NCBI GenBank assembly: GCA_021737565.1
Contig: JAIPDS010000001.1
Coordinates: forward strand, 1 to 64,000
Direction: 5' to 3'
Origin: Desulfobacteraceae bacterium
Lineage (GTDB): Bacteria; Desulfobacterota; Desulfobacteria; Desulfobacterales; Desulfosalsimonadaceae
DNA: 64,000 bases
Below the pieces are notes generated by a model. That model was not told where the DNA came from, made no database searches, and saw only the letters and a list, made by a program, of their open reading frames with translations. Numbering within the stretch: position 1 is the stretch's first letter; every line of letters starts with the position of its first letter. Position numbers and translations under genes: made by a program. This document shows, piece by piece, positions 58,817-64,000 of this stretch.

Positions 58817-59749
58817 TTAATCGATTTCCGGCCGCGGCAGCAGACCGGCGCGCTCCACGATTTCCGGCACCTTTTCCTCCCATTCAATAGCCATGATATG
58901 GAAGCCACTGACGCCTTTTAACTCCTTTAGCCGCTGAATGGTTTCAACACAGATATTAATCCCCTCTTCGGCCTGCTTGCCCTTTTGTGTGTCTGACATG
59001 CGTTTTACCACGTCGTCTGGCACGTCCATGCCCGGGACCCGGTTTTTCATGTATTTTGCCATGCCGGCGGATTTAAAAGGGGTCACACCGGCCATGATAT
59101 AGCATTTTTCAGTAAGACCGCGGTCTTCTGCCTGTTTGACCCATTTCTCAAACTTTTCCAGGTTGTATATGCACTGGGTCTGAATGAATTCTGCGCCCGC
59201 CTCTATCTTTTTGGCAAGCCTGGGCACCCTGATTTCAAAAGGGTCTGCAAACGGGTTGGCTGCCGCACCAACAAACATTTGGGGCGGCCTTTTGATTTCG
59301 TCTCCTCCAAGGAATTTGCCTTCATCGCGCATGTTGCGAACTGTCCATGCAAGCTGCATGGAGTCAAGGTCATGGACGTTCTGCCCTTGGGGATGATCGC
59401 CGAAGCTTTGATGGTCTCCTGAAAGGCAGAGTACATTGTATATGTCAAAGGAGGCTGCGCCCAGTATATCGCTTTGCAGGGCAATGCGGTTTCTGTCCCT
59501 GGTAACCATCTGGAGAATGGGTTCCAGGCCCATCAGTTTTAAGTGAATGCATGTTGCAAGGCTGCAGGTGCGAACCACGGATGTCTGATTGTCTGTTACG
59601 TTTATTGCATCAACGCAGCCTTTCAGCAGTTCAGCCTTTTTTTTGATCACTTCAGGGTCGCTGCCCCGGGGCGGACCGCATTCCGAGGTGACGCCCAGAT
59701 GACCCGCAGCCATGATTTTTTCCAGTTTGCTCGGAGTTTTCGCGTTCAT
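58817..59749 (-). CDS. metF: Methylenetetrahydrofolate reductase
   Basis: SECGPPRGSDPEVIKKKAELLKGCVDAINVTDNQ, FIQTQCIYNLEKFEKWV. Confidence 0.92.
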   Translation of the reverse strand: MNAKTPSKLEKIMAAGHLGVTSECGPPRGSDPEVIKKKAELLKGCVDAINVTDNQTSVVRTCSLATCIHLKLMGLEPILQMVTRDRNRIALQSDILGAASFDIYNVLCLSGDHQSFGDHPQGQNVHDLDSMQLAWTVRNMRDEGKFLGGDEIKRPPQMFVGAAANPFADPFEIRVPRLAKKIEAGAEFIQTQCIYNLEKFEKWVKQAEDRGLTEKCYIMAGVTPFKSAGMAKYMKNRVPGMDVPDDVVKRMSDTQKGKQAEEGINICVETIQRLKELKGVSGFHIMAIEWEEKVPEIVERAGLLPRPEID

Positions 59750-60417
59750 ATCTGTACATCCTCCCTCTGAACTTTTCTGGGTCCGCCTGCCCGGTCAGTG
59801 GACCAGTCCTTGATGCCGAAAAGTTTCTCATAAAGATCCATCCGATCAATGGCTTTTAACCTGTCAATAATCAACTGCCAGGCACAGTCAAGCTCCTTGT
59901 TGATCTCGCATTTGCCGTTGGAAGATCCTCCGCACGGACCGTTTAACAGCCGCTTTGCGCATCTTGCCACCGGGCAGATCCCGCCGGTGTAAGCCAGAAT
60001 ACACTGCCCGCATGCCTGGCACCTTTCGGTCCACAGCCCCCGCTGTTCGGTCGCCCCGAGAAAGCAGGTGTTAACGCCGGGATAAACCGGGATGGAGTGG
60101 TATTTTTCAGCGGTGAACTGCACCCCCACGCCGCACGCAATAGAAACGATGGCGTCATAATTGTCCGCTATATCCCTGATTTCCTCCAGGTACTCATGAT
60201 CGCACTGCCGCTCCAGAGTGCGCTCATCTACCAGTGCATCTTCAACACCCCGGTTTGCAAAATACATGCGCAGGGCTGAAGCCAGCACGCCTGCTTCCTT
60301 TTTCCCGCCCGCCTCGCAGACTGTAACGCATTCATTGCAGCCGAGAACCAGGAGCTTTTTGCAGTCCTTTACATATTCAATGATCTCCTCGACCGGTTTT
60401 TTATCAGCAACTATCAT
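59746..60417 (-). CDS. metV: MetV-type methylene-THF reductase C-terminal/zinc-binding subunit
   Basis: VLGCNECVTVCEAGGKKEAGVLASAL, ERCQACGQCILAYTGGICPVARCAKRLLNGPCGGSSNGKCEI; ATGA overlap with metF. Confidence 0.9.
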   Translation of the reverse strand: MIVADKKPVEEIIEYVKDCKKLLVLGCNECVTVCEAGGKKEAGVLASALRMYFANRGVEDALVDERTLERQCDHEYLEEIRDIADNYDAIVSIACGVGVQFTAEKYHSIPVYPGVNTCFLGATEQRGLWTERCQACGQCILAYTGGICPVARCAKRLLNGPCGGSSNGKCEINKELDCAWQLIIDRLKAIDRMDLYEKLFGIKDWSTDRAGGPRKVQREDVQI

Positions 60418-60460: not shown

Positions 60461-60892
60461 TTATGCAGCATTCTTTTTTTTCTTTTTCATAGGATTCGGC
60501 CCCAGATTGCGGATGCGCTCATCCATTTCCTGGGCGTACTTTACAAATAAAGGGCCGTCGCTTGACGACAGGTTATACATTTGGGCTCTTTCACCTTCAA
60601 GTCCTATGGTGTTTAAAATCTTCTGCACCTGCTCCACTCTTTTTCTGGCGCGCAGATTTCCGGTCTTGTAATGGCAATCGCCTTCCATGCATCCGATGAT
60701 CGAAACGCCGTCTGCCCCTTTTTCGAATGCACGAAGCATATGCTGAACATCCACCTTGCCGGTGCAAGGTACACGGATAATTCTGATGCTTGCAGGATAA
60801 GTAAGTCGCATGGAACCTGCCAGGTCCGCGGCGTTATACCCTCAGTAGTCGCAGCAGAAGGCCAGTATCCTTGGTTTAAATTCCTGGTCCAT
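60461..60892 (-). CDS. mvhD: MvhD-like hydrogenase iron-sulfur (delta) subunit; selenoprotein with UGA-encoded Sec at codon 17
   Basis: Minus strand from ATG 60892-60890: M D Q E F K P R I L A F C C D Y (TGA 60844-60842) G Y N A A D L A G S M R L T Y P..., continuous with ORF 60461-60811. Confidence 0.85.
60812..60827 (-). promoter_or_regulatory. Candidate bacterial SECIS hairpin
   Basis: Minus strand GGACCU-GGC-AGGUUCC: six base pairs, GGC apical loop, single bulged U in the 3' arm, starting 14 nt after the UGA. Confidence 0.7.
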
Positions 60893-63800
60893 TATTCCTC
60901 CTCTTCCAGCAGGGCGTCAACCTTGCTCATTATTTGATCGTCTTCATACCAGCGAAGCTCTATGGCCTTGGCCGGGCATTCCGCGGCGCATGCTCCACAG
61001 CCCTGGCACAGGGCATCATCTATTTCACTTACGCCTTCCTCGTTGATCCTGGGCACACCATAGGGGCAAGTGCGTATGCATATCAGGCAGGAAGCGCACT
61101 TTTCGGGATTTACATGTGCCGTAACCGCTGAAAGCGTGAGATACGGCTGGGACAGCATGGTCGTTGCCCTGGACGCCGCTGCCATGGCCTGGGCTATGGA
61201 TTCCGAGACAAGTTTAGGGCTGTGCGCAGTACCGCAGAGATAGACGCCTTCGGTTCCCATTTCCACGGGGCGCAGCTTGACATGGGCTTCGACGAAGAAG
61301 TCTTCCGCATTGCGGTTTAACTTCATTATGTTTGCCAGTTCCTCGGTGTCCTCTGCTTCCACGCCCGCGCTCAAAACCAGCATATCAGCATCCACGCTTA
61401 TTTTGCGGCGCAGTATATGGTCGGTAAATTCCACGTTCACACCGTTGTCCCCGGAATCTACTGCAGGCGGGTCCTCGGGATCAAAGCGGAAGAACATCAC
61501 CCCGAGTTTTCTGGCCTCGGTGTAATAGTCCTCCAGCATGCCGTAGGTTCGGATATCCCTGTAGAGTATGAAGACCTGGGTTTCAGGGTTGAGCTTCTTG
61601 ATGTGGATGGCGTTTTTGATTGCGCTCTGGCAGCAGACCCGCGAGCAGTTGGGGTTTTGATCGTTTCGCGATCCTATGCACTGGATCATTACAACCTGGT
61701 TCAGATTGTCGGCTGCTCCTTGCTGTTCCAGTTTTTCGCCGAGTTCAAGCTGGGTGACAACAGCGGGGTTCTCGCCGTACAGATATTCCTCCGGACAGTG
61801 CTCTTTTGCACCTGTGGCCATAATGGTTGCGCCGTGTTCTATCTTGCGGCTTACCATCTGTGCGCCCACCAGGACCTCTGTTGTAAAGTTGCCCTTGAAA
61901 CCGGAAAAGTCCACTATCACGGAATCGGTGAGAACTTCGATTTTGGAATGCGCATTTACCTGCCCGGCCAGTTCGCCGATATACGTCCGGACATCCATTC
62001 CCTCTATAGTCTTGGTAAGCCTGTTTCCAAGGCCGCCCAGAACAGCTTCTTTTTCAACCAGCACCACCTCAAATCCCTGGTCTGCGATACCCAGGGCCGC
62101 GTTCATTCCCGCAACACCGCCGCCCACAACCAGGGCCCGCTTTGTCACAGGGATCTGTCTTTCATGCAGAGGCTGAAGGGAGGCGGCTCTTGCCACTGAC
62201 ATGCGGACCAGTTCCTTTGCTTTTTCAGTGGCCAGTTCCGGGTTGTCGCCGTGAACCCAGGAGTCCTGGTTTCGGATATTGGCCATTTCAAAAAGATACT
62301 TGTTCAAACCCACGGATTCCAGGGTGTCCATGAATATGGGTTCATGTGTTTTGGGCGTACACGACGAGACTACCACCCTGTTGATGTTGTGCTCCTTTAT
62401 TACTTCTTTCATGTTGTCCTGGGCGTCCTGGCTGCATGTAAACAGGTTTTCGCCCGCATAGACAACATACGGCAGATTTTCCGCATATTCACGTACTTCC
62501 GGTACATCGACCACGCCGGCAATGTTTATGCCGCAGTCGCAGACAAAGACCCCGATCCGGGGAGGCTCTCCTTCGACGTCAATTTCCTCCGGCCTGGAGA
62601 CATCCTTGATCCGGGTTCCCCGGGCTTCGGCAAGGGTGCGGCCCGCCGCACATGCAGCCGCACTTGCCTCAGTTACAGATCCCGGTATATCCTTTGGCCC
62701 CTGGAAAATTCCGCAGGCAAAAACCCCTTCCCTGGAAGTGTTTACAGGGGCAAGCGGGCTTGTTTCCGCAAAGTTGTAATGGTTGAGATCTATGTTTAAG
62801 CGCTGCGCAGTTTCTATTGTGGACTGCGGAACCTGCAGACCGACTGAGAGCACCACCAGGTTGAATTCTTTTACTTCCACGTTGCCGGACTCGTCCACGT
62901 ACCTGAGATGGAGGTTTCCGGTTTCCGGATCTTCGTCTATTGTGTGGACCCTGGACTTAACAAACCTGACCCCGGAACTGTCTTTTGCCCTCAGGTAATA
63001 TTTTTCGTAATCCTTGCCGAAGGTCCTGATGTCCATGTTGAAAATTACTGTGTCCAGGCCGTGCTCGGAGTGATCCTTGGCAATCATTGCTTCCTTTATG
63101 GCATACATGCAGCACACCGAAGAGCAGTAGCCGTTTCCGCACCTGTTGGTATCCCTTGAGCCTATGCACTGGAGCCAGGCAATCTTTTCGGGCTCCTTGT
63201 TGTCCGAGGGCCGGACCAGGTGCCCCATTGTTGGCCCGGATGCCGAAAGAATGCGTTCGAATTCCGCGCTGGTCAAAACATTCGGGCTGGACTTGTATCT
63301 GTAGGTGTCCTCCAGGATTGCCGGATCAAACACATCATTTCCCGGACAAAGGATTAGCGAGCCCACGTCTATGTCTCTTTCCTCCGCGGTTTGCTCATGG
63401 TCAATGGCGTCTGCAAGGCAGGCCCTGACACACTGGTAGCATTCAGAGCAGATGCCGCATTTTAAGCACCGGTCGGCCTCTGTGCGGGCTTCCTCCTCGC
63501 TGTAGCCCAGGGATACTTCCAGAAAGTTGCATTCTCTTGCTTCGGGATCCAGGCACTTTACCGGGACCCTTTCCTTGTGGGGCTCATTTACAACGTCAGG
63601 CTTTTCATAGGTCCATTCTTTTTCCCGGCCTTCTTTCAGATCCATACCGTTTATAAACCGGTGGATTGATTCTGCAGCCTCTTTTCCGCAGGCAACTGCA
63701 TCCACGACGGTTTTCGGGCCGTAGTATGCGTCACCGCCTGAGAATACCCATTCCATTGAGGTCTGCAGCGTGACCGGATCGCCTTCCAGGCCGCCGCGCC

Positions 63801-64000
63801 CGGTCATGGGAACATTTTGCCCCTCGATGTCCGTGGTGTCAGTTGCCTGGCCTATGGCAAGAATAACGGTGTCGCCGAAAAAAGCCTCGCATGCGTTTTC
63901 GTCAAATTTCGGGTTAAACCGCCCCTCTTCGTCAAATACAGCGGTGCAGGTTTTAAATTCAATTCCGGAAAACCGGTTTTCATTGTTTATGAAAAAACTT
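60892..64000 (-). CDS. hdrA: HdrA-like electron-bifurcating subunit with two FAD/oxidoreductase-like halves (truncated by window edge)
   Basis: VCDCGINIAGVVDVPEV, ALVVGGGVAGMNAALGIADQGFEVVLVE, CIRTCPYGVPRI, CQGCGACAAECPAKAI; N-terminal half FGDTVILAIGQATDTTDIEGQNV...GDAYYGPKTVVDAVACGKEAA resembles GltD/NfnB. Frame stays open to 64000. Confidence 0.9.
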   Translation of the reverse strand, partial: SFFINNENRFSGIEFKTCTAVFDEEGRFNPKFDENACEAFFGDTVILAIGQATDTTDIEGQNVPMTGRGGLEGDPVTLQTSMEWVFSGGDAYYGPKTVVDAVACGKEAAESIHRFINGMDLKEGREKEWTYEKPDVVNEPHKERVPVKCLDPEARECNFLEVSLGYSEEEARTEADRCLKCGICSECYQCVRACLADAIDHEQTAEERDIDVGSLILCPGNDVFDPAILEDTYRYKSSPNVLTSAEFERILSASGPTMGHLVRPSDNKEPEKIAWLQCIGSRDTNRCGNGYCSSVCCMYAIKEAMIAKDHSEHGLDTVIFNMDIRTFGKDYEKYYLRAKDSSGVRFVKSRVHTIDEDPETGNLHLRYVDESGNVEVKEFNLVVLSVGLQVPQSTIETAQRLNIDLNHYNFAETSPLAPVNTSREGVFACGIFQGPKDIPGSVTEASAAACAAGRTLAEARGTRIKDVSRPEEIDVEGEPPRIGVFVCDCGINIAGVVDVPEVREYAENLPYVVYAGENLFTCSQDAQDNMKEVIKEHNINRVVVSSCTPKTHEPIFMDTLESVGLNKYLFEMANIRNQDSWVHGDNPELATEKAKELVRMSVARAASLQPLHERQIPVTKRALVVGGGVAGMNAALGIADQGFEVVLVEKEAVLGGLGNRLTKTIEGMDVRTYIGELAGQVNAHSKIEVLTDSVIVDFSGFKGNFTTEVLVGAQMVSRKIEHGATIMATGAKEHCPEEYLYGENPAVVTQLELGEKLEQQGAADNLNQVVMIQCIGSRNDQNPNCSRVCCQSAIKNAIHIKKLNPETQVFILYRDIRTYGMLEDYYTEARKLGVMFFRFDPEDPPAVDSGDNGVNVEFTDHILRRKISVDADMLVLSAGVEAEDTEELANIMKLNRNAEDFFVEAHVKLRPVEMGTEGVYLCGTAHSPKLVSESIAQAMAAASRATTMLSQPYLTLSAVTAHVNPEKCASCLICIRTCPYGVPRINEEGVSEIDDALCQGCGACAAECPAKAIELRWYEDDQIMSKVDALLEEEE

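Follow-up and report, generated by a model that had tools for sequence, protein, structure and literature searches.

The DNA between hdrA and metV on the minus strand of a Desulfobacteraceae contig raises the question of whether a protein that an open reading frame track begins only at 60811 is in fact a longer MvhD-like subunit, with an in-frame TGA read as selenocysteine (Sec). The locus lies in the window, by which we mean the whole 64,000-nucleotide stretch that was analysed, and the features at issue are as follows.

60461..60892, minus strand: putative mvhD/flpD selenoprotein gene, 143 aa with Sec at codon 17 (PF02662 match; orthologues with the same TGA)
60842..60844, minus strand: in-frame TGA, codon 17, predicted to be read as Sec (Cys in paralogues)
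60813..60827, minus strand: candidate SECIS upper hairpin, GGACCU-GGC-AGGUUC (conservation, fold and published bSECIS model)
60895..60905 (limits approximate), minus strand: Shine-Dalgarno-like stretch (AGAGGAGGAAT) upstream of the mvhD ATG, placed by sequence

A reading frame restored through one TGA

The sequence-only reading had held that an MvhD-like protein is hidden by the UGA and that its N-terminus is recovered upstream of 60811. The frame from 60892 to 60461 bears this out, as it contains a single in-frame TGA (codon 17, 60844-60842) before the next stop, a TAA at 60461, and is translated with read-through as MDQEFKPRILAFCCDYUGYNAADLAGSMRLTYP... The read-through protein covers positions 1-123 of the 123 of PF02662 (E 3.9e-50, above cut-off at 169.4 bits versus 22.3). 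The form starting at 60811, directly behind the SECIS hairpin, covers positions 21-123 only, and the full match thus requires read-through. The longer form had also been argued for from the overlap of its ATG at 60892 with the hdrA stop (ATAATG), which is indeed present and is preceded by a strong AGGAGG Shine-Dalgarno sequence.

The Sec residue replaces the second Cys of a conserved C14-x-x-C17 pair, which is kept in the solved MvhD chains that were aligned. Among 60 relative genomes, the best mvhD homologues contain exactly one TGA each in most cases, and this TGA is at codon 17 in those homologues whose sequences were read; an alignment shows TGA at this codon in 44 relatives' genes. A further scan of named genomes from Desulfobacterales and neighbouring Deltaproteobacteria (including Desulfococcus, Desulfonema, Desulfosarcina, Desulfobacula, Olavius symbionts, Desulfohalobiaceae and Desulfobulbaceae) recovered TGA at codon 17 in 80/80 loci kept; the mvhD homologue in the complete genome of Desulfonema magnum 4be13 (L170) likewise has TGA17. 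The seed peptides lay outside the hairpin, but the scan retrieves near relatives of the query, so the figure of 80/80 does not make Cys forms rare. Cys occupies position 17 in paralogues that the same genomes encode. The in-frame UGA is therefore aligned with a Cys conserved in homologues, which is a criterion for a bacterial UGA-Sec codon, and the proposal that Sec occupies a position usually filled by Cys agrees with an alignment in which homologues have either Cys or Sec at codon 17. The Sec-17 genes fall into three separate groups of the FlpD protein tree. The residue has switched state two or more times along branches with strong support, and all three groups have the hairpin. A phylogenetic sign test of hairpin against Sec state gave the expected direction in 2/2 pairs, which are too few for significance.

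The hairpin begins 14 nt after the TGA, with a 6 bp stem, a GGC loop starting 20 nt past the UGA and a folding energy of -12.5 kcal/mol. These values satisfy every part of the published bSECIS model (a stem of 4-16 bp, a loop of 3-9 nt with G within its first two bases, 16-37 nt between UGA and loop, and MFE <= -7.5; PMC13188914). The earlier description of an in-frame, SECIS-like hairpin at this distance is upheld by this agreement and by conservation. The bulged U that was part of that description is not, as no bulge appears in the minimum-energy fold and the would-be partner of the first G (the third base of codon 27) varies between C, G and A; a G1-C15 register with a G-U pair fits better. 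Folding energy was dropped as proof of a SECIS, as shuffled sequences fold equally well (z about -0.3). The hairpin is instead regarded as meaningful because of its sequence conservation. All 111 distinct Sec-17 genes contain the 12-nt core GACCTG[GT]CAGGT and none of the 27 Cys-17 genes does. When 50 codons that are well conserved among the Sec genes are compared, synonymous entropy is 0 at codons 22-26 and no lower than 0.73 bits at the remaining 45. By this sequence measure, the hairpin is under nucleotide-level selection within the coding sequence. The same synonymous-freeze test (111/111 versus 0/27) provides a clean argument from sequence for a coding-region SECIS and is reusable for other candidates. 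A tRNA was the sole Rfam hit in the window. That the clade's selenoproteins all share one SECIS core was considered and rejected, since the selD hairpins differ.

The same genome encodes a second FlpD (C45:14059-14424), in which a TGA occupies the Cys68 position and is followed by its own hairpin (ATTACCTGGAAGGTAAT). It is one of seven genes found with Sec at position 68 instead of 17. These genes lack the codon-17 core and have a different hairpin after codon 68 (ATTTCC-TGG-AAGGAAAT), which in the own-genome copy carries a paired change (ATTACC..GGTAAT).

The operon and its predicted second Sec codon

The neighbours of mvhD extend from metF to a point beyond the window end.

60892..63999, minus strand: C-terminal part of hdrA/hdrL; the frame extends to 65145, beyond the window, and then meets an in-frame TGA
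C70:65148-65146, minus strand, 1.1 kb past the window end: predicted hdrA Sec codon TGA (motif TNDCAMU, conserved hairpin)
59746..60417, minus strand: metV, the MTHFR C-terminal partner (PF12225; kept beside mvhD in relatives)
58817..59749, minus strand: metF, methylenetetrahydrofolate reductase (PF02219; kept beside metV in relatives)

The gene order hdrA-mvhD-metV-metF is retained in nearly all relatives whose contigs are long enough. The hdrA frame halts at a TGA inside TNDCAM-U-VISPKLVEVGRH, in agreement with the CxxU motif listed for Sec-HdrA. This codon is TGA in the operons of 18/19 relatives and Cys in one (L232), and in the 18 it is followed by CTGGTCG-AGGT-CGGCCGG, a 7-bp hairpin with its loop 22 nt away. 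As judged from these sequences, the operon has a second selenoprotein gene, the hdrA beside mvhD, giving the order Sec-hdrA / Sec-mvhD / metV / metF, and the truncated models of two genes of an energy-metabolism operon, mvhD and hdrA, are corrected. The middle part of HdrA resembles by eye a GltD-type NAD(P)H/FAD domain, matching the HdrL type described for Desulfobacterium autotrophicum HRM2. No hdrB or hdrC was found between 58817 and 65145, and by eye the next large frame upstream on that strand (65546-66724) does not resemble an Hdr gene.

MvhD/ElpC proteins use a [2Fe-2S] cluster to relay electrons to the FAD of HdrA (PMC12350162), and in Sporomusa MvhD and HdrA interact with MetVF (PMC9430772). 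Homology with MvhD structures predicts that the protein encoded here carries a [2Fe-2S] cluster relaying electrons between the flavin of HdrA and partner enzymes. An MvhD-HdrA-MetVF complex would probably couple the interconversion of methyl-THF and methylene-THF, in the methyl branch of the Wood-Ljungdahl pathway, to HdrA flavin chemistry; MetVF in a sulfate reducer may run oxidatively, with the direction of electron flow set out here as a proposal.

Selenocysteine decoding and its alternatives

With a probability of roughly 0.95, we take the product of 60892..60461 on the minus strand to be a genuine selenoprotein that serves an HdrA(L)-MvhD-MetVF complex as its MvhD/FlpD electron-transfer subunit. 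At UGA17, SelB with Sec-tRNA(Sec) would bind the in-frame hairpin, the loop of which starts 20 nt downstream, and Sec would be inserted without termination. The conserved TGA, the selection on the SECIS, the operon and the selB gene are read from sequence, and from them we infer Sec insertion in this organism.

The search for the selenocysteine genes, which had been proposed as a check, gave a divided result. selB is present (340 bits), and searches of this 2.65-Mb, 88%-complete MAG recovered none of selA, selC and selD, though most relatives have all three (selA in 51/60, tRNA-Sec in 50/60 and selD above cut-off in 53/60). The absence of three of the four sel genes is more than 88% completeness would predict. 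Those own-genome tRNA-Sec candidates that could be checked proved to be tRNA-Ser, -Leu and -Arg, and a selD-like match of 56 bits, below cut-off, was not taken as selD. In comparison with congeners (G008 for selC), in which the names of sel neighbours come from reading the translations, the selA region with its hemC and uvrA-like neighbours has no match in the MAG except a dispersed repeat; contig C102 matches one flank of selD and ends within that flank; and in the selC region the recA side has no significant match, while the other side is present on C34 beside unrelated sequence. Synteny on C34 breaks around 8888, directly beside the place of tRNA-Sec in the congener, by rearrangement or misassembly. 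Assembly gaps are the simplest reading of the missing sel genes, less certainly so for selC because of this break. Several relatives (G018, G027, G033, G048, G004, G005 and others) contain a second, weaker tRNA-Sec-like match (50-61 bits), which in some shares its contig with a nearby FlpD or selD match.

The same observations bear on a loss of Sec decoding in this organism or a recent ancestor, after which UGA17 would terminate, leaving the operon with no MvhD at all or with one that begins at the 60811 ATG and lacks its N-terminus. The missing selA, selC and selD and the synteny break at the selC site speak for such a loss, but selB is intact, the mvhD frame has no other lesion and three Sec-type TGAs (mvhD, the second flpD and hdrA) remain in the genome within conserved contexts. 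Moreover, the blocks lacking a significant match include hemC/uvrA beside selA and the recA side of selC, the match on the selD side stops only where its contig ends, and the truncated protein would be without C13, C14 and residue 17. We regard this loss as very improbable. Decoding of the UGA as another residue, by a Trp/Gly code change or near-cognate read-through, would account for a frame that is open through the codon, yet homologues carry Cys rather than Trp or Gly at the site and the SECIS core occurs only with TGA. TGA is also the ordinary stop of other genes in the window, such as lpxB and metV, so it has not been reassigned genome-wide, and this decoding is less probable still. Nothing except the break in the open reading frame track suggests that the TGA arose in sequencing or assembly or marks a pseudogene; an assembly error was ruled out by the same TGA in dozens of independent assemblies, and with the codon shared by 111 distinct homologues and strict synonymous conservation downstream, this account is already refuted, with a negligible probability left to it.

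Relation to known Sec-containing Hdr modules

The selenoprotein reading places the gene among described families. Sec-FrhD was reported in 2006, in 19 genes and with Sec/Cys exchanges (PMC1794560), and the FrhD selenoprotein is listed with a CxxU motif and PF02662 (PMC13188914). The protein encoded here shares with this family PF02662, C-x-x-U, Sec/Cys exchange among homologues and an in-frame bacterial SECIS, whereas the operon of 2006 was glpC-hdrA-frhD-frhG-frhA with hydrogenase subunits and the partners here are metV and metF. In HRM2, Sec-MvhD1/2/3/5 and Sec-HdrA/HdrL were reported in 2009 (PMC2702500), and the two loci, compared by description, share co-located Sec-MvhD and Sec-HdrA or HdrL (an HdrA/glutamate-synthase-type fusion) in a sulfate-reducing deltaproteobacterium, but the operon here ends in metV-metF. 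Sec-MvhD with Sec-HdrA/HdrL is thus already published for Deltaproteobacteria (2006, 2009), and mvhD here adds one more case of a kind that sulfate-reducing bacteria commonly encode. No explicit description of a metVF operon with Sec in HdrA as well as in MvhD was seen in the main text of the open-access papers found. The closest solved chain by sequence (E 1.6e-40) is PDB 9sfi chain K, the F420-non-reducing hydrogenase subunit delta, which differs in being named a hydrogenase subunit and has the letter X at the equivalents of both Sec17 and Cys68; we infer that X stands for Sec.

The clustering of hdrA, mvhD, metV and metF is shared with the Hdr-type MTHFR of Moorella and Sporomusa (HdrCBA-MvhD-MetVF; PMC9430772). 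In contrast to those systems, HdrA and MvhD here both carry Sec and the cluster has no hdrB/hdrC, because of which the operon is described as working like the Hdr-type MTHFR and is not assigned to it. The findings suggest that, throughout a large clade of sulfate reducers, hdrA-mvhD-metVF depends on selenium. A broader reading, which we hold tentatively and at somewhat less than even odds, is that MetVF of Desulfobacterales is served by a doubly Se-dependent, largely co-conserved module (HdrA/HdrL CAMU, MvhD CCxxU) without HdrBC. If true, C1 electron flow would depend on selenium, and the Cys paralogues might substitute. As an independent point, this reading has Sec at Cys position 17 in some FlpD paralogues and at 68 in others, with a separate, rigid SECIS for each position.

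Also observed was an intergenic element of ~80-90 nt that is dispersed through the genome and folds into a long hairpin of great stability (about -55 to -79 kcal/mol when flanks are included). A search of the window allowing 3 mismatches found no copy, and copies are present elsewhere in the own genome (G000: C15, C101, C103, C113, C7 and C70:67002-67069), with one in a congener (L102:9497-9568).
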